Origin: Sediminibacterium ginsengisoli | GTDB taxonomy: Bacteria > Bacteroidota > Bacteroidia > Chitinophagales > Chitinophagaceae | DNA: 64,000 nt | Reading direction: 5' to 3' | NCBI GenBank assembly: GCA_945901845.1 | Contig: CAMDLR010000006.1 | Location: forward strand, 1 to 64,000 | In this document: in pieces, positions 15,116 through 58,504 of the stretch | Numbering within the stretch: position 1 is the stretch's first letter | Layout: each line of letters starts with the position of its first letter | Notes under the pieces: model-generated | The model's database searches: none | Told to the model about the DNA's origin: nothing | Seen by the model: only the letters and a program-made list of their open reading frames with translations | Translations under genes and position numbers: made by a program

Positions 15116-15150
15116 GAGAGCGCTTCCTACAAGGAGGCGCTCTCTTTTTT
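15116..15150 (+). terminator. Terminator downstream of ompA-like gene
   Basis: GAGAGCGCTTCCTACAAGGAGGCGCTCTCTTTTTT hairpin + T tract. Confidence 0.85.
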
Positions 15151-15813
15151 GTAGACTGGCGCATATATAAAAAAGCAGGAGCCATCTTTAATTGATTCAA
15201 TTAAAGATTTATTAATTTTCTCTGGTACTGCTGGGCAACCCCAACTTCTTCCCATACCATATTTTTGTTTAGCCAAATTTTCATTCACATAGGGTGCGCC
15301 ATGAATGACAACCGATCTAGCTAATGCATGATCATTAATTCCCTTTTCTTTTCCATCTAGCTCCAAAGACAATCCATTTTTTCCGTTGTAGGTATTTTTA
15401 GTCACAAAAAAACCAAGACTACTTTTTAAGCTATTTATATTATTGGAAAAACTTTTTGCTATTGCAGCACCTGAATTTTTTCCATGCGCTACATAATCGT
15501 AAAAAATCAATTCTTGCGAAATCAAATTGATAACAAAGAGTCTTTTTTGTGAAGAAGGAAGGCTAAAGTCAACAATTGACAGCACGGCGCTGTTCATTAA
15601 TTTACCCTGTGCTAATAGTTTTTCAAAACCCCTTACGGCTAAGTCAAACGCTTTTTTTGAAAGACCGCGCTGCTCAAGATCCAGTTTTTGGTAAAGCTGC
15701 TCTTTTGGGAGGGGTTCGGCAAAACAGGCGTTGCTTAAGGTCAAAAAAAGGCAAAATGCCACCAATTTGGCGCCTTTTTTAAATAAATCTTGTATGTGTT
15801 GAAGCTTAATCAA
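15127..15813 (-). CDS. Murein L,D-transpeptidase catalytic-domain family protein
   Basis: Signal peptide; ARSVVIHGAPYVN...GRSWGCPAVP (H...SxGC motif). Confidence 0.87.
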   Translation of the reverse strand: MIKLQHIQDLFKKGAKLVAFCLFLTLSNACFAEPLPKEQLYQKLDLEQRGLSKKAFDLAVRGFEKLLAQGKLMNSAVLSIVDFSLPSSQKRLFVINLISQELIFYDYVAHGKNSGAAIAKSFSNNINSLKSSLGFFVTKNTYNGKNGLSLELDGKEKGINDHALARSVVIHGAPYVNENLAKQKYGMGRSWGCPAVPEKINKSLIESIKDGSCFFIYAPVYKKESASL

Positions 15814-42063: not shown

Positions 42064-43182
42064 CTACTTATTGATGGATATATTTCCTTGCGCATCAATT
42101 CTTAATGCACTTTCTGGAAAATCTTCTGTCGATAACCGCTTTATTAAATTAGCCGCAGCGTTGGTTCCATCCTTCACGGGCCCCCCTTCGCCTAGTTGCA
42201 AGAAGGAATGTATTTTACCCTCGGTAAATGCACCATTTTGGTCCACTTTAAAAGTAAGCAGCGGTGCATAACCACTTATGCCTTTAAGATTAAATTTAGC
42301 ATAGGTGCAAAAATTACCTAGGCTATAAGCAATAAGCCTAGACTTATAAAGTTCTAGTGCTCTAGGAACGTGTGGCCCATGGCCAAGCACCACATCGGCA
42401 CCAGCATCAATCACCGCATGGGCAGCCTCGTATACATCTCCTCTATCTTGTCCTAAGAAAATTTCATGTCGTCTTGGAACCCTAGTCGCTTTCGATCCTT
42501 CTGCACCAGCATGAAAAGAAACGATTAGTACATCACATTTTAGTTTTACTTGTTTTACCAAGGCTATCGCCGCCTGAAGTTCATTAAGATTGAGGCAACC
42601 ATTATGAGGAGCAAAGGCCACCAAACCAATTTTAACGCCTTCTCTTTCAATTATTGAAAATGGATTAGTTTTATTGCCTGCGAATTTCAAGCCATTGGCT
42701 TCAAAAACCCTACTGGTACTTTCTACACCTATGGCGCCAAAATCATAGGCGTGATTGTTTGCGATACTGAGCAAATCGAATCCATACTTTTTTAGAATAG
42801 TACCATATGATTCAGGTTGCCTAAAATTGTACACATTAGCTCCGGAACCCTTAGATTTTCCACCCTTGTTAAGAAATACGCCTTCAGCATTACCAAATGT
42901 AACAGAAGCGTTGCGCAATAGGGAGTCGGCGGGCATTAGCAATGCACTAGCATCCGGAGGAAGTGTTGATATATCTGGAAAATTTGTTCCCAACATGATG
43001 TCGCCAACAGCCGCTATGTCAATGATTTGTATTTTTTTGGATTTATTGGTTGAGGTATCAGAAAATTGTTCATTTTTATCATGAATTGCTAATAAGGGTT
43101 CAGTTGAAGATTTATTATCAACACTTTGACTGCATCCCAAAAACACCATTGATAAAGCATAGGACAAAATGATATTTATCAT
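42064..43182 (-). CDS. CapA-family (poly-gamma-glutamate synthesis type) metallophosphatase-fold lipoprotein
   Basis: MVFLGCSQ lipobox; AVGDIMLGTNFP, SIANNHAYDFGAIGVEST, VSFHAGAEGS, DVVLGHGPHVPRALE, YSLGNF. Confidence 0.93.
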   Translation of the reverse strand: MINIILSYALSMVFLGCSQSVDNKSSTEPLLAIHDKNEQFSDTSTNKSKKIQIIDIAAVGDIMLGTNFPDISTLPPDASALLMPADSLLRNASVTFGNAEGVFLNKGGKSKGSGANVYNFRQPESYGTILKKYGFDLLSIANNHAYDFGAIGVESTSRVFEANGLKFAGNKTNPFSIIEREGVKIGLVAFAPHNGCLNLNELQAAIALVKQVKLKCDVLIVSFHAGAEGSKATRVPRRHEIFLGQDRGDVYEAAHAVIDAGADVVLGHGPHVPRALELYKSRLIAYSLGNFCTYAKFNLKGISGYAPLLTFKVDQNGAFTEGKIHSFLQLGEGGPVKDGTNAAANLIKRLSTEDFPESALRIDAQGNISINK

Positions 43183-43712
43183 TTCAAATTATTTTTAGGT
43201 CTAAAAATAGAATAGATATTATTGAGTTGATATTCACCAAATTTACCGGGTGTTTTTTTGTTCATACCCGCATAGCTTAGGGTAACTGCTATTTTATTCG
43301 CAAAATCTTTCCAGCAAACAAAAATAGCGCTGTGCTCGCTGTTGTTAAATTGATGATTGATATGGTAAATCCAATCTCCCGGCTTCACGAGGCTCGAAGC
43401 TGCAAAAGGTCCTTTTTTACGAGATCTAAAAATAGTCTCTTTAGCGTCCCCAAAACCAGAACGATGATACACTTCATTCACAAAATCCCAACATGAACCT
43501 TGGACTATACTCATGTCAACCAAGGCCATCTTGTAGCCAGTTTTCAAAACTTTAAAACTTCCGTTATTTTCCGAAGAAGTGTCCGCATTTATAAAGACAT
43601 GCTCGCATTGGCAATAGTTTTCCAAACTGCTGATATTAGGCTTATTTATTTGTGCTATTACTGAACAACTTAACGAAATAAATATGGTGCAGAAAAATAT
43701 ATACCTTTTCAT
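43179..43712 (-). CDS. Secreted NlpC/P60-like (papain-fold) candidate peptidase/amidase
   Basis: Signal peptide MKRYIFFCTIFISLSCSVIA; GSCWDFVNEVYHRSGF...LVKPGDWIYHINHQFNNSEHSAIFVCW Cys/His arrangement; 4-bp overlap with capA-like gene. Confidence 0.55.
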   Translation of the reverse strand: MKRYIFFCTIFISLSCSVIAQINKPNISSLENYCQCEHVFINADTSSENNGSFKVLKTGYKMALVDMSIVQGSCWDFVNEVYHRSGFGDAKETIFRSRKKGPFAASSLVKPGDWIYHINHQFNNSEHSAIFVCWKDFANKIAVTLSYAGMNKKTPGKFGEYQLNNIYSIFRPKNNLK

Positions 43713-49743: not shown

Positions 49744-52700
49744 CTATTTACAGTTTCTATAACTATTTATAGCGCTACTATTTCCCAAATCTGCAGCTCT
49801 TTTGTAATCTAAACATGCTTCTGCTTTTTTATTAAGATTATAGTAGCTGCTGGCTCTATTATTATAAAACATTCCAATATTCTCTTTACTTTCACTTTTA
49901 CCTGTTCTTATAGCTGCTGTATAATCTTCAATTGATTTTTGGTATACTCTTTTTTTATAATAGCAACTACCTCTATTGTTATAAGCCATAGAAGAAGTTT
50001 GATAGTTATTTATATAGGTAGTATAACTTTCTATTGCATTGTCTGTCAGTCCTATTGAATTTTCGGAATATGCTTTATTAAAATAAAATGAAAAATCCTG
50101 AGGATTTTTATAAACCATTTTTTGATACGATTCTAAAGCCTCCCTATAATATTTTTTCTCATAATTATATGCAGCTTTTTCCGATAATATATCTGCATTG
50201 TCATCGTCTATTTCTATTGCTTTGTCAAAATATTTTATTGCCTCACTATAGTAGTTTTTTTCTTTATAAGTATGCGCTAATTCTACATACGCAATTTTAT
50301 TCTTTGGATTTAACGCTATTGCTTTTTGTAATAAATCGATTGCTTGATCTCTCTCATTTTCGTCATAAATAAATGATCTGGCTTTGTTTACTAGCTCATT
50401 TGATTCAAATTCTGAAAAATCAATCTCAGAACTCATTAATATTTGATTTTTTGCATTTAAATAAACCTCTACATCATTGTATAAACCCTTTGTATAGTTC
50501 AAATAGTAACTTACTGATTTAAAGGATTTTGTTACTTTTTCAAGTTCTTTGGTACTAATAGTAAATTTATAAAACTCTGAAATTTCATTATCTAATTGTT
50601 TGGTAAGGAAAATATATTTTTTATCCTTAGAATAGGCTTGCAAATTAAAATCATTTAAAAGCGTTTCTCCTTTTGTGTTTATGATTTTATTTTTTGAAGC
50701 ACCATTCTCTGTAATTGTTACTGAGGCTAATCCATTAATAAATGCAGTTGCATAATTATATATAATTGGTATTACAATTTGCCCCTTTTTATTAATGTAG
50801 CCATATTTTTCTCCAATTTGTACAACTGTTAAACCATCAGAAAAATCATAATTACTTTTCCATATCGACTCTTCAATGGAATTTTTAGTGATATCTATAA
50901 ATGAACAATCGGAGTATAAAGATGTCATGTTATTTTCGGAATAATCGCCTTCACCTTCACCATCTCCTCCTTCCATGCCAATATATGAATAACCAAGACT
51001 AGATTTTTCATATATCGGTTCAATGATTAAATCTCCATTTTCGTTTATGTAACCTATTTTCTCATTCATTAAAACCGCAAGCAATCCTTCTGAAAAAGTG
51101 GTAGAAATGTCTTGATATGGTTTTAAATTTAAATACTTCTTCAATTTTACACTGAATAACCTTATTTGTAAATTATCAGGAGTATAGTTTTCATTTCTAA
51201 TTACATACACACCGTTTGATAAATAACTAATAATATTTTGTCCTGGTTGAATTAAAATATTTTTAGAAGAATCAATAAGTGACGATTTATTATCTGCCGT
51301 TGTAACAATATAATATTTTCCAGAGCTATCAGAAACTATATTCTTGTATATGATTGGTAAAATTAACCTGCCTTTATAGTCTGTAACCCCAAACTTAGAT
51401 TTACTTTCTGCTATAAAAACTGAACTATTTAAGGCTTTACCTTCATTTGCCAAATAATAGCTACTGTAGTTAGAACTATAAACACTTTTTCCGCCCCCAT
51501 CTAAAAGCAGTTTGAGACTTCCTTTCTTAGCTATAAAACCGTCCGGAATTATAGAGATATCATCATATGTAAATGGAATAATAATCTGAAGTAAAGTATC
51601 GGCAAATGCGTAATAATTCTTACCCTCAATTCCTTTAGCAATTAAATATCCTCTATTTGCTACTACTTGAACCGAAGTAAGTGTAGGTTGAATTACTAAT
51701 TCCCCATTTGTATTTATAAAACCATATTTTCCACCTATACTAATTTGGGCAAATCCATTTATAAATTCGCCTATACAATCATAAGTTATTTGTTGTGAAA
51801 TTTTGCCGTCCTGGTCGATTATACCCCGTTTATTATATTTAGTAACTAAAAACTTTCCTTTCTCTAAAATCAATATCTGATCATACTCATTGATATCTAT
51901 TATTTGGTTCGTTGTAACATTGTATAATTGATATTTTTTATTTTTATTAAGATATGGTAGGACGTCACTTTTTAATTCTTTAATTTTTAGATTAGCAAGA
52001 TCTGTATACTTTGAATTTTTAAATAGTACTTTAAACTTTTCAAAATCTGATAAAACCTTTGAATCTGCTATAGCGGCCCAACTTGTGCTTTCTAGTTTTT
52101 CTTTTGCTTCATTGATATACTGAGAAGTTGAAAACTGAGTTATAAATTTATTATAACCTTCTATTGAATTTTCATTTAATGTTTTATTCCAAGAAAGGTT
52201 TTCAATTTTATCATTCGCTAGTTTAGTATTTTCTGATTTAGGATATTTGGATATATATGTTTTGAAGTCATCTATGTTTTTTGATTCTTTTATTTTATCC
52301 CACTCAATATTTTCTATATTTTTCTTTGCATCTTTTACCTGCGGGGCGTTTGAGTATTTTTTGATAAATATTTTAAATGATTCAATTGAGTTTATTTTTA
52401 AGGCATTTTCATATGCTATTTTCCAGAGGTTAATTGTAGCATCTTCAATTTCTATGGCATCTGGATATTTTGATATAAATAATGTATAGCTATCCTCGGT
52501 ATAAATTAAATTAGCTTCACGATATGCTAATTTATTTCGCCATTGGGTTATCTCATATGAATATTTACTCTTAGGATATTTCTTCAAAAAAGATGTTACC
52601 ACCAAGAAACTTTCGTTTTTTAAATAAGCACGACTTAATGTACTATCCAGTCTTTCAAATAGAATCCTTACATTTTCTATACAAAATCCAATGCTTTTAC

Positions 52701-53004
52701 ATAATTCTTCTTTGTCTTTATCATTTTCTATCTTAGAAAGTTGCAATTCTGCCTCTGATAAATCAATAAAAGCACTATCAAGTTTTAAATAATCATCAAT
52801 TTCGTTTACACCAATACATGCTTTGATATAATAATATTCTGCGCGTCTTCCTTCCTTTTTTTCATAAGTAGCTAGATTTTCGTATGCTTTAGTAAGGTCA
52901 TTTTTTATTATCTCTTCTTGAGCTCTTTTCAAAAAACGTTCCTGTGCATTTAGATTATTCAAGCCAACACAGATAATTAGAAAGTATATAAGTCGTGATT
53001 TCAT
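49744..53004 (-). CDS. Large secreted WG-repeat + TPR protein
   Basis: 1086 aa; signal peptide; ~35-40-aa F..FI.KYP.S...A...IE.L.W repeats; KYGFINTNGELVIQP / KIGYINENGDLIIEPIY / KYGYINKKGQIVIPIIY WG repeats; C-terminal TPRs. Confidence 0.88.
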   Translation of the reverse strand: MKSRLIYFLIICVGLNNLNAQERFLKRAQEEIIKNDLTKAYENLATYEKKEGRRAEYYYIKACIGVNEIDDYLKLDSAFIDLSEAELQLSKIENDKDKEELCKSIGFCIENVRILFERLDSTLSRAYLKNESFLVVTSFLKKYPKSKYSYEITQWRNKLAYREANLIYTEDSYTLFISKYPDAIEIEDATINLWKIAYENALKINSIESFKIFIKKYSNAPQVKDAKKNIENIEWDKIKESKNIDDFKTYISKYPKSENTKLANDKIENLSWNKTLNENSIEGYNKFITQFSTSQYINEAKEKLESTSWAAIADSKVLSDFEKFKVLFKNSKYTDLANLKIKELKSDVLPYLNKNKKYQLYNVTTNQIIDINEYDQILILEKGKFLVTKYNKRGIIDQDGKISQQITYDCIGEFINGFAQISIGGKYGFINTNGELVIQPTLTSVQVVANRGYLIAKGIEGKNYYAFADTLLQIIIPFTYDDISIIPDGFIAKKGSLKLLLDGGGKSVYSSNYSSYYLANEGKALNSSVFIAESKSKFGVTDYKGRLILPIIYKNIVSDSSGKYYIVTTADNKSSLIDSSKNILIQPGQNIISYLSNGVYVIRNENYTPDNLQIRLFSVKLKKYLNLKPYQDISTTFSEGLLAVLMNEKIGYINENGDLIIEPIYEKSSLGYSYIGMEGGDGEGEGDYSENNMTSLYSDCSFIDITKNSIEESIWKSNYDFSDGLTVVQIGEKYGYINKKGQIVIPIIYNYATAFINGLASVTITENGASKNKIINTKGETLLNDFNLQAYSKDKKYIFLTKQLDNEISEFYKFTISTKELEKVTKSFKSVSYYLNYTKGLYNDVEVYLNAKNQILMSSEIDFSEFESNELVNKARSFIYDENERDQAIDLLQKAIALNPKNKIAYVELAHTYKEKNYYSEAIKYFDKAIEIDDDNADILSEKAAYNYEKKYYREALESYQKMVYKNPQDFSFYFNKAYSENSIGLTDNAIESYTTYINNYQTSSMAYNNRGSCYYKKRVYQKSIEDYTAAIRTGKSESKENIGMFYNNRASSYYNLNKKAEACLDYKRAADLGNSSAINSYRNCK

Positions 53005-53165
53005 AATTGAGAAGTATAAGTTAAGAACACATTAAAAAAACATATATATTAAATCAAATTTAGATATAATCATAGTGTTTACATTTATTTGTTTACAAAT
53101 GTATTAATTTTATTATGTCTAATGCATCATTTTAGCCTTAGTTGGCACTAAATAACACTTAAATA

Positions 53166-54506
53166 ATGGATAAAGTTAAAGTTGGTTTTAATACAGCTTA
53201 TTCTGTGGTTGTTGCAAACATGATTGGTGTAGGAGTATTTACCTCATTGGGTTTTCAATTAATTGGATTACAAAGCTATATATCAATTACGGTTTTGTGG
53301 TTATTTGGAGGTTTTTTAGCTTTAAATGGATCTTTTTGTTATGCCGAATTAAGTGCCGCTTATCCAAAATCTGGAGGAGAATATAATTTTTTAAGAGAAG
53401 CATTTGGCGATCGGGTTGGATTTTTGTCTGGTTGGACTTCTTCAATAGTTGGATTTGCAGCTCCAATTGCTGCAGCAGCACACGCTTTTTCAAAATACTT
53501 TATTGACATGAGTAGTTTCAGTATTAATCCAATTTATATCTCAATCCCATTAATATTAATTTTAACAGCTGTTCATTGTATTAGTTTATCTCATAGTTCG
53601 ATTCTTCAAATATTTACTTCTTTTTCAAAAATTTTATTATTGGTATTGTTTATTGTTATTGGTTTTATAGCAGTATTCTACAGTAAACAAAATTCTATAG
53701 GAACCACTAATTTAGTGGTCGGGAATTACAAGCAAGAAATGTTATCCCCTGCATTTTGGATTGGTTTGATTTATGTCTCATATGCTTATTCAGGATGGAA
53801 TGCATCATCTTATATTATCGATGATATAAAAAATCCTCAAAAGGTAGTTCCAAGATCTATTTTACTTGGCGTGGTATCAGTAATTGTAATTTATACCTTA
53901 CTAAATCTTGTTTTCTTATTATCAAGTAAACAAGATCAATTGGTAGGAAAAGAAGATTTTGTTTTTGATGTTGCAAAAAATTTATTTACAAAAAATGGAG
54001 CCATTTTAATTTCTTCATTAATTTCATTCTTTTTAATTTCTTCCATTGGCGCTTTAATAATGGTAGGCCCAAGAGTTATACATACTATATCACAAGACTA
54101 TCCTTTTTTCTCGTTTTTTATTAAAAGCAATAAAAACGGCATTCCATATAGATCAATAATTACACAGTCTTTTATTGCAATAGTAATATTGTCAACTAGT
54201 AGTTTTGATTTTATAATATCTACAATGGGTTTAATCCTTTGTCTTTTCACAACACTTACATCAATTGCTGTAATAATACTACGTTATAAATCTCCGCAGC
54301 TTCACAGACCTATTAAAGTTCCCCTATATCCATTACCACCAATTTTATATGCTGTATTTAATATTTGGATTATGTATTATGTTGTAACAGCTAAGCCTGA
54401 ACAAGCAATCTATTGTTTAGTATTTTTATTGATTGGATTAATAATCTATTATTTAGCTAGTAAGAAAAAAACAAGTTCTTCAACCCTTGCCAAATACTTT
54501 CCATAA
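53166..54506 (+). CDS. APC family amino acid permease
   Basis: VVANMIGVGVFTSLGFQL, YPKSGGEYNFLREAFGDRVGFLSGW; about 12 TM. Confidence 0.93.
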   Translation: MDKVKVGFNTAYSVVVANMIGVGVFTSLGFQLIGLQSYISITVLWLFGGFLALNGSFCYAELSAAYPKSGGEYNFLREAFGDRVGFLSGWTSSIVGFAAPIAAAAHAFSKYFIDMSSFSINPIYISIPLILILTAVHCISLSHSSILQIFTSFSKILLLVLFIVIGFIAVFYSKQNSIGTTNLVVGNYKQEMLSPAFWIGLIYVSYAYSGWNASSYIIDDIKNPQKVVPRSILLGVVSVIVIYTLLNLVFLLSSKQDQLVGKEDFVFDVAKNLFTKNGAILISSLISFFLISSIGALIMVGPRVIHTISQDYPFFSFFIKSNKNGIPYRSIITQSFIAIVILSTSSFDFIISTMGLILCLFTTLTSIAVIILRYKSPQLHRPIKVPLYPLPPILYAVFNIWIMYYVVTAKPEQAIYCLVFLLIGLIIYYLASKKKTSSSTLAKYFP

Positions 54507-54703
54507 ATACTCTCTAAATAGTTGTATAAAATACTTTAATATATATTTCAATTATATTATTTAATGAAAATACACCAAAAACATAGTAGTTAATTCACAT
54601 ATGTAAAAAAAATAATTTAATTTTACTTTTTATGTGCATTAGGCGTTAATCTTAAATTTCCCCATTTCTATTCATAAAATACATTTAATCAATTTTATAG
54701 GTT

Positions 54704-56044
54704 ATGTTGAAAAAATCAAAATGGCTTTTATTTGCATCGTTACTCATTGCATTTGCTATTCTACTTTTCATTTTCAATTATTCAAATAAAAAAAAGGAAC
54801 TTGTAAAAGATAGAAGTAATTCATCTAAATTGACAACACGCAAGAACCTTGATTCATTGTCTATTGAAGAAATTAGAGCACGGTATTTGAACAATCCCTG
54901 TTATTTGGCTTTATTAAAAGATCCAAATATGTGGGAAAAAGATACAAGACCTGGGTTTGATTATAAGGATTTAATTAATGATTCTTTGTCAGGTAATCAT
55001 CCATATAATAATAGATTCATTGTAGGAGACTTTAACTCAATGCCACTAGATGGTAAAAAGATTGGTATATATGAAATTTATCCTAGTTTATCATCTCTTT
55101 CAGAATTTAAGTCTTACCCTAAAGAGCTTTTAGAAAAATTAGATACAATCGTTTATTCAGAAAATAATTTAAAAATTGTTTATGCTGATATAAAAACAAA
55201 ATATGGCTCAAAGGCTGATCGCTTGATAAACTTTATTGAAAAGGTATGGAAGTATAAAATTATCCCGATTTCTAGAGAGTATTCAATTAATGGCGATAAA
55301 GTATATGCTGCTGGACAGGTAATGGTATTATGCGAAGCTTGTAGCGATACGCTCAAATTAGTTGGAAAATTTGCAACTTCAGCAAAAAGACAAGATTTCA
55401 TGTTCAGAACGGATGCCAATGGTAATAAGATTAAAGCAACTATAGAATATGCTCCTGTTGGAGATCGAAGAGGTTATTATGCAGGTCTTAATAGAATAAC
55501 TAGTAAAAATTGGGAAACAGAACGCTCTTATGATTCACTTGACATCGAACGTGACAATGAGGTAGGTGGAGGCAATAATAGAATTACTATTTATGATAGA
55601 AAAGTAGAATTGCCCAATTTTTTATTGATACAGCCTGATAAGTCTTATCCGAAATCAATGAGACAAAATGGAATTCATGAAATTGCATTGAATTACCTAC
55701 CTCGTGGGATGTTGGGTACTCCTAATAGTATTGGATGTTTGAGGGTTTCAGATTTTGGATCGAAATTTTTTCGTTGGTGGGTACCACAAAATGCCAAATT
55801 ATTCATTGCATATAACGATAGCTTATATTTAAAAAAGCATGATTCTAATCCAATGTCTTATTTGCCATTTAAAAACCAAACAGACGGAGATAAATTTAGA
55901 AAATGGATAAATATAAATTATCCTGATTTTGCAAAACGGTTTGACATTAGTATTGATGGTGATTATAAGAATGGGTTTATCATTGATGGATATTACTTCT
56001 TTAAGAAAGAGTATGATAATTATTTAAATAAAAATCAGAACTAA
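54704..56044 (+). CDS. L,D-transpeptidase (YkuD-like), membrane-anchored
   Basis: GIHEIALNYLPRGMLGTPNSIGCLRVSDF (HE...S.GC.R catalytic motif); N-terminal TM. Confidence 0.85.
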   Translation: MLKKSKWLLFASLLIAFAILLFIFNYSNKKKELVKDRSNSSKLTTRKNLDSLSIEEIRARYLNNPCYLALLKDPNMWEKDTRPGFDYKDLINDSLSGNHPYNNRFIVGDFNSMPLDGKKIGIYEIYPSLSSLSEFKSYPKELLEKLDTIVYSENNLKIVYADIKTKYGSKADRLINFIEKVWKYKIIPISREYSINGDKVYAAGQVMVLCEACSDTLKLVGKFATSAKRQDFMFRTDANGNKIKATIEYAPVGDRRGYYAGLNRITSKNWETERSYDSLDIERDNEVGGGNNRITIYDRKVELPNFLLIQPDKSYPKSMRQNGIHEIALNYLPRGMLGTPNSIGCLRVSDFGSKFFRWWVPQNAKLFIAYNDSLYLKKHDSNPMSYLPFKNQTDGDKFRKWININYPDFAKRFDISIDGDYKNGFIIDGYYFFKKEYDNYLNKNQN

Positions 56045-57087
56045 TGGCTAAAAAAGGTATTTATATAATTTCTATTTTAATATTCTGTTTATTAATACAA
56101 TCAGAAAAAATTAATGCACTAAATATTAGTCCGTCAATTTTTAGTTTACATACTGATACAGTAATCAATTTAATAACAAAGGATACAGTATTTGAGGAGT
56201 CTTATCCAAAAGATTCCATAATTAAAAAAGAGCTTTATTCATTTAAAAAAAATTGGACTACAACAAAACCACTAGAAAGTGATAGCGCGTCGGCAATTTC
56301 TGAAAAGCTCCTTTCTGAAAATCCAATATTTTTAGAATACTGGGACAACACTCAAGTTTTTACTTATGAAAATCTTACCTATTCAGATTTACCACTAAAA
56401 ATCGAAATACCCTTAGTTAAAAATGAAGAAAAGTTTCAAATAACATGGTATGGAAACCTGAACTTTAAATACGGGTTGAGATGGGGGAGAATGCATCGGG
56501 GATTGGATTTATTTTTACGAACAGGTGATTCAGTAGTTTCTGCATTTAATGGAGTTGTGCGATATGCTAAATTTAATTCCTCTGGTTTTGGAAACTGTGT
56601 TGTAGTGAGACATCTTAATGGTTTGGAAACTGTTTATGGACACCTAAGCAAAATCAGTGTATCTGAAAATCAATATGTACAGGCTGGAGAATTAGTAGGC
56701 TTAGGAGGAACTACTGGCCGATCGAATGGACCACATTTGCATTTTGAAACACGCTATAAAGATTTTTCAATTGATCCAGAAACATTTGCCGATGTTCGAA
56801 GTAGTAAACTACTATCAGAAACATTTGTCTTGTATAAAAGCGCACTTCAGGAGATACGATATCCGACGGCTTCAGTAAGCAAAAAGAAGATTAAATATTC
56901 AAAAAAACAACCAGTTAAAAAGTCTAAGTATAAAAAAGCAACATCAAAAAAATCAATAAAAAGTAAACCAAAAAGCAAAAAAAAGCCTGTAACATCAAAG
57001 AAAACAGTAAAAAAACCTACAGCTAAGAAACCGATAAAAAAATCGACTTCAAGCAATAAAAAGCCTATTAAAAAAAAGAAAAAATAA
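56044..57087 (+). CDS. M23 (LytM) peptidase with about 70-aa Lys-rich C-terminal tail
   Basis: MHRGLDLFLRTGDSVVSAFNGVV, GNCVVVRHLNGLETVYGHLS, GRSNGPHLHFE; tail KKKIKYSKKQPVKKSK...KKPIKKKKK; TAATG overlap with previous gene. Confidence 0.93.
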   Translation: MAKKGIYIISILIFCLLIQSEKINALNISPSIFSLHTDTVINLITKDTVFEESYPKDSIIKKELYSFKKNWTTTKPLESDSASAISEKLLSENPIFLEYWDNTQVFTYENLTYSDLPLKIEIPLVKNEEKFQITWYGNLNFKYGLRWGRMHRGLDLFLRTGDSVVSAFNGVVRYAKFNSSGFGNCVVVRHLNGLETVYGHLSKISVSENQYVQAGELVGLGGTTGRSNGPHLHFETRYKDFSIDPETFADVRSSKLLSETFVLYKSALQEIRYPTASVSKKKIKYSKKQPVKKSKYKKATSKKSIKSKPKSKKKPVTSKKTVKKPTAKKPIKKSTSSNKKPIKKKKK

Positions 57088-57095
57088 AATTCTAA

Positions 57096-58253
57096 ATGAA
57101 AAACATATTTAAGCTATTCTTAATCATTGTATTATTTAATGCATGCAAAGGAAAAAATGATAGCAATTCGTCGGAAGAAAAGAAATCAAAAGTTAAGATT
57201 GATTATCAAGTTGATTCGTTATATAATAATTATGCCCAAAGAGTCGCTGCAAAAGACACTACGCCATTTAACGATATAGACCAATCTTCTCTTGTATCTT
57301 TTTATCATTTGCAAAATGATAAAATAAATCCAATTATTGAAAATAGATTAAGCCTAATTACTAATTGGAATCAAAGTATACTGAGCAGAAATAAAGTGTC
57401 AGATTCTAGTTTTGTTTTTTATCCATTTTCTGGTGCTGATTTTATTCATGCCTATTATTTATATCCGAATGCTTCTGAATATTTTATGTCAGCAATTGAA
57501 AATATTGGTGATATAGTTGACGTCACTAAACTAAACAAAGTAGAGTTTTTTGAGTATGTAAAAGATTTCGATACAGTAATGCGAGATATTTATATGCGCA
57601 GTTATTTTATAACAAAAAATATGGAAGAAGATTTTAGTAAGAAAACAAAAATTAATGGCGTATTGCCAATTTTATTATGGTCTGCTGCTATGACCAATCA
57701 TGATATCATTCATGTTAAATATTTTATTATCGATAGTAGTTTCGAAAAAAAATATGTTGACTTATTTGCTAGAAATAAAAATAAATTGAGTGTAGAAATA
57801 AAATTATTTGACAAGACAAATAATAAGTTTCAATTATTAAACTATTATTCTGCTGATTTGTCAAATAATGGTTTAAGAAACTCTTCTAAATCATTAAAAT
57901 TTATGAAAAACTATATTTCTGATAGTTCTAATGGATTTGTTAAATCTGCTTCATATTTAATGCATTATGACTCATCGTTTAGTACTATCCAACAACTGGT
58001 TTTAAATAAAAATATGTATTTAGTACAAGATGATACGGGAGTGCCATTCAAGAAATTTGATTTGACTAAATGGAATATTGAACTGTATGGCGTATATGAG
58101 AAACCAATTAAAGATTTTTCTGAAACTTTGTATCAGAAATCATTAGATGATGCTTATCAAAATAACAAATACTATAAAGGTGGACTTAAATTTTCACTCG
58201 GTTACCATTGGAGCTCTAAAAACCAGAATCAATTAGTTGCAATCAAAAAATAA
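57096..58253 (+). CDS. Hypothetical lipoprotein
   Basis: MKNIFKLFLIIVLFNACKG lipobox; 385 aa, 8 bp after the M23 gene. Confidence 0.7.
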   Translation: MKNIFKLFLIIVLFNACKGKNDSNSSEEKKSKVKIDYQVDSLYNNYAQRVAAKDTTPFNDIDQSSLVSFYHLQNDKINPIIENRLSLITNWNQSILSRNKVSDSSFVFYPFSGADFIHAYYLYPNASEYFMSAIENIGDIVDVTKLNKVEFFEYVKDFDTVMRDIYMRSYFITKNMEEDFSKKTKINGVLPILLWSAAMTNHDIIHVKYFIIDSSFEKKYVDLFARNKNKLSVEIKLFDKTNNKFQLLNYYSADLSNNGLRNSSKSLKFMKNYISDSSNGFVKSASYLMHYDSSFSTIQQLVLNKNMYLVQDDTGVPFKKFDLTKWNIELYGVYEKPIKDFSETLYQKSLDDAYQNNKYYKGGLKFSLGYHWSSKNQNQLVAIKK

Positions 58254-58263
58254 TTTTATAAAA

Positions 58264-58504
58264 AATGAAAATATTCAATATCCCGAATTCGTCATTGCTC
58301 AGTCAAAAATGGAAACAGGTTGGATGAATTGTAAAGTGGCGTTCAAAATTTCCTGATAAAGATTACTATCATTTTCTGAAATACGTTAAGTATGCCACTG
58401 GGGATCCATACAATCGGTCTTTGAAGCATTTCGTAACATGGATTAATAAAAATTTAGTACTTCCTAGGTCTTTCGTTGAAATCGTTAAGTCAAGTGTGAA
58501 CTAG
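58264..58504 (+). pseudogene. Remnant of a glucosaminidase (GH73-like) domain
   Basis: NENIQYPEFVIAQSKMETGWMNCK in one frame, then KWRSKFPDKDYYHFLKYVKYATGDPYNRSLKHFVTWINKN...* in another; middle of the domain missing. Confidence 0.75.

Follow-up and report, generated by a model that had tools for sequence, protein, structure and literature searches.

The window analysed here, a 64,000-nucleotide stretch from the genome of a freshwater Bacteroidota (a 2.1 Mb draft, 97% complete), carries five open reading frames between positions 49744 and 58253, and their positions and lengths agreed with those given in the earlier note when checked against the predicted frames. A secreted 1086-aa WG-repeat/TPR protein (49744..53004, reverse strand; Pfam WG_beta_rep, 4.1e-29, plus TPR) is oriented divergently from four forward-strand genes. 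These encode a predicted LAT-type APC amino-acid permease of 446 aa (53166..54506; PF13520, 2e-52), a divergent YkuD-like protein, also of 446 aa, predicted from its catalytic motif to be an L,D-transpeptidase or L,D-carboxypeptidase (54704..56044; hereafter LDT), an M23 metallopeptidase of 347 aa with a Lys-rich C-terminal tail (56044..57087; PF01551, 1.9e-29), and a 385-aa lipoprotein of an unnamed family with its lipobox cysteine at C17 (57096..58253), which we propose as an ectodomain partner of the permease. As reported earlier, the LDT and M23 frames overlap in TAATG, and the lipoprotein follows M23 after 8 bp; the 197-bp gap between the permease and the LDT contains no remnants of the genes that relatives have there. 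The GC content of the genes between 49744 and 58253 is 27-31% against a mean of 36.8% for the genes of the window, an AT-richness consistent with accessory origin, and PADLOC returned no match to an anti-phage defence system.

The identification of the M23 gene is secure, as both zinc motifs, HxxxD and HxH, are present, and H151/D155 and H231-x-H233 are invariant across its homologues. The Lys-rich tail is likewise real and is common to four members of the window's lineage, while LysM stands in its place in the M23 proteins of Algoriphagus and G041 and in the one adjoining a permease-lipoprotein fusion at locus L063. From this replacement, the tail plausibly takes the role of LysM as a wall anchor. 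The stretch following the lipoprotein (58260..58504, forward strand) had been read as the remnant of a GH73 glucosaminidase, a reading that was not borne out: the likeness to PF01832 extends over 21 residues (E 0.027; 15.6 bits against a cut-off of 30.2), the second half of the stretch gave no match, and a tblastn search with the genome's own intact GH73 protein reached E 4 at best. In none of the relatives examined does a glucosaminidase occupy this fourth position. Given the weak 21-residue match and the missing counterpart in relatives, GH73 was dropped as a member of the module and the degenerate stretch is not counted as part of it. The sole match to its second half among relatives, in G003, falls in unrelated sequence, and an intact GH73 gene lies elsewhere in the window genome, as in all 41 genomes searched.

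The gene upstream of M23 had been called an L,D-transpeptidase, a claim that stands on its catalytic motif and falls short at the level of family membership. In an alignment of nine LDT homologues, H325, S342, G344, C345 and R347 are invariant, and H325...S342-x-G344-C345-x-R347 is the arrangement of the YkuD active site; the N-terminus contains a membrane helix. No Pfam or NCBIfam model matched the window protein, the YkuD model was matched by two of the nine homologues (best E 0.0021), and one of these two scored a sub-threshold 17.9 bits against the Pfam cut-off of 23.4. When hhalign was used to compare it with the YkuD proteins of the same genome, 12 columns aligned, comprising the SxGCxR motif alone. 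The AF2 model, with a pLDDT of 57 overall and below 50 in the catalytic region, was too poor for a fold search, and a profile search of the PDB with this protein gave nothing meaningful. Because the YkuD scores are sub-threshold and the profile comparison aligns just SxGCxR, the predicted product is named YkuD-like here and is not filed as a YkuD member. It may be a cross-link former or a carboxypeptidase of the Csd6 type, between which the sequence does not choose; Csd6 is a precedent for a YkuD-fold enzyme acting as a pure L,D-carboxypeptidase that frees D-Ala (PMC4599014).

The lipoprotein matched no Pfam or NCBIfam model, in agreement with the earlier statement that it belongs to no known family. 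Across 45 homologues, 36 columns are at least 85% conserved, including D115, E135, K283 and D312, S286 is also among the strongly conserved polar residues, and the lipobox cysteine C17 is retained in 42. Its AF2 model is of good quality (pLDDT 81, pTM 0.83), and Foldseek found no PDB match at E<=0.001; a weak likeness to Rossmann-type class I methyltransferases was seen (4pwy, probability 0.82, E 0.023), and a PDB profile search yielded nothing meaningful. Profile searches detected the family in 83 of 345 genomes of the class, representing 40 of 177 genera, and it also occurs in some families outside class Bacteroidia. The LDT was detected in one of the same 345 genomes and in one of 150 genomes of the family, in both cases the window genome alone, with further matches in two of 60 relatives, G007 and G041, and at six loci recovered from a search of genome contigs. 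Both the lipoprotein and the LDT are present in 2 of 37 same-genus genomes. Almost none of the genomes that carry the lipoprotein also have the LDT, which is therefore not regarded as core.

The nearest solved structure to the permease is BasC, an alanine-serine-cysteine exchanger (6f2g, 1.8e-46 over residues 8-436), followed by the human SLC7 LATs. The TM5 lysine of LATs (BasC Lys154) corresponds to K155 of the permease and is present in 24 of 29 homologues; the best NCBIfam match, TIGR00911, was under its cut-off. End-to-end homology to BasC and LATs, together with this lysine, places the protein in the LAT type by prediction. When neighbourhoods were read around the lipoprotein at 40 loci in 39 Bacteroidia genera, a LAT-type permease was found beside it, on the same strand and within 1.5 kb, at 26 loci, a class A beta-lactamase-like serine hydrolase (PF13354) was near it at 16, and M23 at eight; at the remaining 14 loci the lipoprotein had no adjacent permease. 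In most of the 26 the permease touches or nearly touches the lipoprotein, with one gene between them in one case; the genes most often run M23, permease, lipoprotein, hydrolase, with several neighbours overlapping. Since 2-7 APC permeases were counted in each genome checked, adjacency by chance would be expected at well under 1% per locus. In five additional loci from outside the class or from other lineages, a permease adjoins in three (L114, L115 and L117; not L113 or L116), and locus L118, from the window's own family, showed no adjacent permease in the stretch read. A mirror-tree analysis correlated the lipoprotein with the permease (r 0.65; 0 of 2000 permutations), a result that was set aside since the species phylogeny they share accounts for it. 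At L066, L068, L087 and L102, the M23-permease-lipoprotein operon adjoins a divergent gene of 849-889 aa that, judged by its first residues, may be alaS (alanyl-tRNA synthetase).

Direct fusion of the two genes was also observed. In three close relatives, L013, L018 and L020, permease and lipoprotein form one open reading frame of 817-818 aa; at L063, from another genus of the window's family, the fused frame is 810 aa long. Each junction retains a hydrophobic stretch that ends in a lipobox, LGSC in L013, LGAC in L018, LGSC in L020 and LIAC in L063, and the presence of this motif inside the frame means that signal peptidase II may split the chain into permease and lipoprotein. The window permease ends in ...SSSTLAKYFP, unlike the fusions, which read ...INSTLIAVGIM at the same place, and this difference suggests that the window permease has lost a fused ectodomain. 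As the beta-lactamase-like serine hydrolase is absent from the entire window genome, the window copy is best described as a reduced version. The earlier note had linked the permease to its neighbours by proximity only; yet across the class no partner of the lipoprotein is better conserved, several genomes have the two fused, and the permease-lipoprotein pairing is the best-supported link of the module.

A neighbourhood search, which the earlier note had itself proposed as a check, showed that the genes do recur together in other genomes. LDT, M23, lipoprotein and permease are found together in three related MAGs and one Algoriphagus MAG, G041 has the set minus an adjacent lipoprotein, and a fifth lineage has it minus M23; all nine LDT homologues sit inside this neighbourhood. 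In G007/L013 and L020, the genes lie on one strand in the order WG, TPR, permease-lipoprotein fusion, beta-lactamase-like hydrolase, esterase, LDT, M23 with Lys tail, lipoprotein, and L018 shows the same order starting at the fusion. The Algoriphagus locus L023 reads permease, lipoprotein, NlpC-like, LDT and M23-LysM; L021 reads permease, lipoprotein, NlpC-like and LDT, without M23, and its lipoprotein is 76% identical to that of L023; L022, on a cut contig, shows the end of the lipoprotein, NlpC-like and LDT. G041 has permease, LDT, LDT and M23-LysM. Both the gene order and the sequence of L021 (CAMDEU010000003.1) agree with Algoriphagus L022 and L023, and its Spirosoma fluviale title is probably wrong.

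Several other genes recur at the edges of these loci. WG and TPR genes stand directly upstream of the permease fusion in G007 and L020, and at L063 a protein resembling residues 837-1086 of the window WG protein adjoins M23. WG or TPR proteins are thus neighbours of the module in relatives too, but it is the repeats that drive their similarity. The window also encodes a CapA/PGA_cap protein (42064..43182, reverse strand; PF09587, 8.4e-46) and a small NlpC/P60-like protein (43179..43712, reverse strand; 43-47% identity to the L021, L022 and L023 proteins) as possible satellites of the module; a poly-gamma-glutamate capsule role was also considered for the CapA-like gene. At L063 a CapA homologue separates M23 from the permease-lipoprotein fusion, and homologues of the NlpC/P60-like protein, which match NLPC_P60 at E 0.03 and no better, lie between lipoprotein and LDT in Algoriphagus. 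In the window these two genes overlap by 4 bp. At G000:C3 (L084) their two families are paired again, accompanied by a PBP transpeptidase, a canonical YkuD enzyme, a PQQ propeller and a muramidase-like gene, a neighbourhood that suggests a second wall module in the window genome. Separately, the window has an intact YkuD_2 gene (15127..15597, reverse strand; PF13645, 4.7e-60), a homologue of which immediately precedes the WG/TPR/permease cluster in L020.

The explanation that best accounts for these observations, and which we put forward tentatively, is that the window holds a lineage-specific form of a widespread Bacteroidia operon, with a LAT permease and its dedicated lipoprotein as the core, to which peptidoglycan enzymes are attached and which would import alanine-like products. 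M23 would cut peptidoglycan cross-links, and the YkuD-like enzyme would trim stem peptides and release terminal D-Ala, as the beta-lactamase-like serine hydrolase would likewise do in relatives. The membrane-anchored lipoprotein would associate with the permease as its extracytoplasmic subunit, the BasC-like permease would import the freed alanine or another small amino acid like it, and the fused chain of relatives would be split at its junction lipobox by signal peptidase II. Conservation of the operon argues for this explanation, with a same-strand permease within 1.5 kb at 26 of 40 loci despite only a handful of such permeases per genome, as do the four in-frame fusions with their junction lipoboxes, the placement of every LDT homologue within the module neighbourhood, the active-site residues kept in LDT and M23 and, as S-x-x-K and S-x-N, in the serine hydrolase, and the Csd6 precedent for release of D-Ala by a YkuD fold (PMC4599014). 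Against it, similarity to BasC does not fix the permease substrate, and a LAT exchanger could equally work as an exporter; the window permease is without a fused ectodomain and the window genome without the serine hydrolase, which itself has no conserved KTG box; and 14 of the 40 lipoprotein loci have no adjacent permease, and nearly all lipoprotein genomes no LDT. A bolder proposal, and a rather doubtful one at present, is that this is an independently evolved bacterial heteromeric LAT, in which an alanine-type permease and an unrelated lipoprotein ectodomain, made as a polyprotein in some species and matured by signal peptidase II, would couple peptidoglycan trimming to amino-acid recovery.

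The earlier note had instead proposed a dedicated wall-remodelling module. Spelled out here, that account would have the YkuD enzyme make 3-3 cross-links, M23 open 4-3 cross-links, the lipoprotein take a wall-binding or regulatory role and the permease be a passenger. This idea was right in that the genes recur together, and it can call on the overlapping or 8-bp-spaced frames of LDT, M23 and lipoprotein, on an M23 tail or LysM suited to wall binding, and on the WG, CapA and NlpC-like genes that recur nearby. It fails in that the glucosaminidase is no member and the permease no incidental neighbour: the lipoprotein's commonest partner is the permease (26 of 40 loci, against eight for M23), to which it is also fused, and the LDT is found in 1 of 345 genomes against 83 for the lipoprotein. 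With an inner-membrane amino-acid transporter in the core, wall remodelling is incomplete as a function, and we consider this account rather unlikely. Similarly unlikely, by a slightly lower estimate, is that the lipoprotein is an alpha-beta-fold transferase or hydrolase acting on peptidoglycan or peptides, whose product the permease imports without direct contact. Strong conservation of D115, E135, K283, S286 and D312 in the 45 homologues and the weak methyltransferase likeness (4pwy) would suit an enzyme, but no fold match was significant at E<=0.001, SAM is to our knowledge not expected outside the cytoplasm, and the fusion to the permease speaks for contact.

General scavenging, in which the serine hydrolase and M23 would digest external or envelope peptides, rather than the cell's own wall in particular, and the permease would import the products, draws on the trio of permease, lipoprotein and serine hydrolase, which often stands without a clear wall enzyme. 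The families added to this trio, M23 and YkuD-type, are specific to the wall, though, and the window M23 keeps all of its catalytic residues, and we regard this explanation as improbable. The prospect that an accessory island without functional unity was assembled by horizontal transfer of AT-rich genes is slighter by far; it would fit the low GC content and the patchy distribution (2 of 37 same-genus genomes for lipoprotein and LDT alike), but unrelated lineages keep identical genes in the same order, with overlapping frames and fusion, and an order conserved across 39 genera contradicts it.

If the proposed operon function is correct, the gene team may let the cell regain amino acids that are released as its own wall is trimmed, suggesting a route for peptidoglycan amino-acid recovery in Bacteroidia and giving a function to a lipoprotein family that has no Pfam or NCBIfam model and occurs in about a quarter of the sampled genomes. 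A bacterial LAT with its own, sometimes fused, lipid-anchored partner would, if true, represent an independent solution that is simple to approach by experiment. Searches of the open-access literature yielded no account of the permease-lipoprotein pair.

Compared with known systems, every part of the module except the lipoprotein is of a known or similar kind, and what is new is the pairing and the fusion. The M23 domain resembles the models of MepM, DipM and ShyA, with the zinc-motif residues invariant, and its homologues carry LysM as enzymes of that type do, whereas in the window's lineage the Lys-rich tail replaces it. The window LDT has the His...SxGCxR arrangement of YkuD and Csd6 and differs in remaining below the Pfam cut-off and in its long N-terminal region without a recognised fold. 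The serine hydrolase of relatives shares conserved SxxK and SxN with class A beta-lactamases, but not the KTG box. The permease shows end-to-end alignment with BasC (1.8e-46) and the human SLC7 LATs and keeps the LAT lysine. As in LAT-4F2hc, it may have an ectodomain partner with a single anchor, proposed here from adjacency and gene fusion. SLC3 heavy-chain subunits reportedly first arose in metazoans (PMC6472337); unlike the SLC3 heavy chain, the proposed partner is an unrelated lipoprotein, encoded beside the permease or fused to it.
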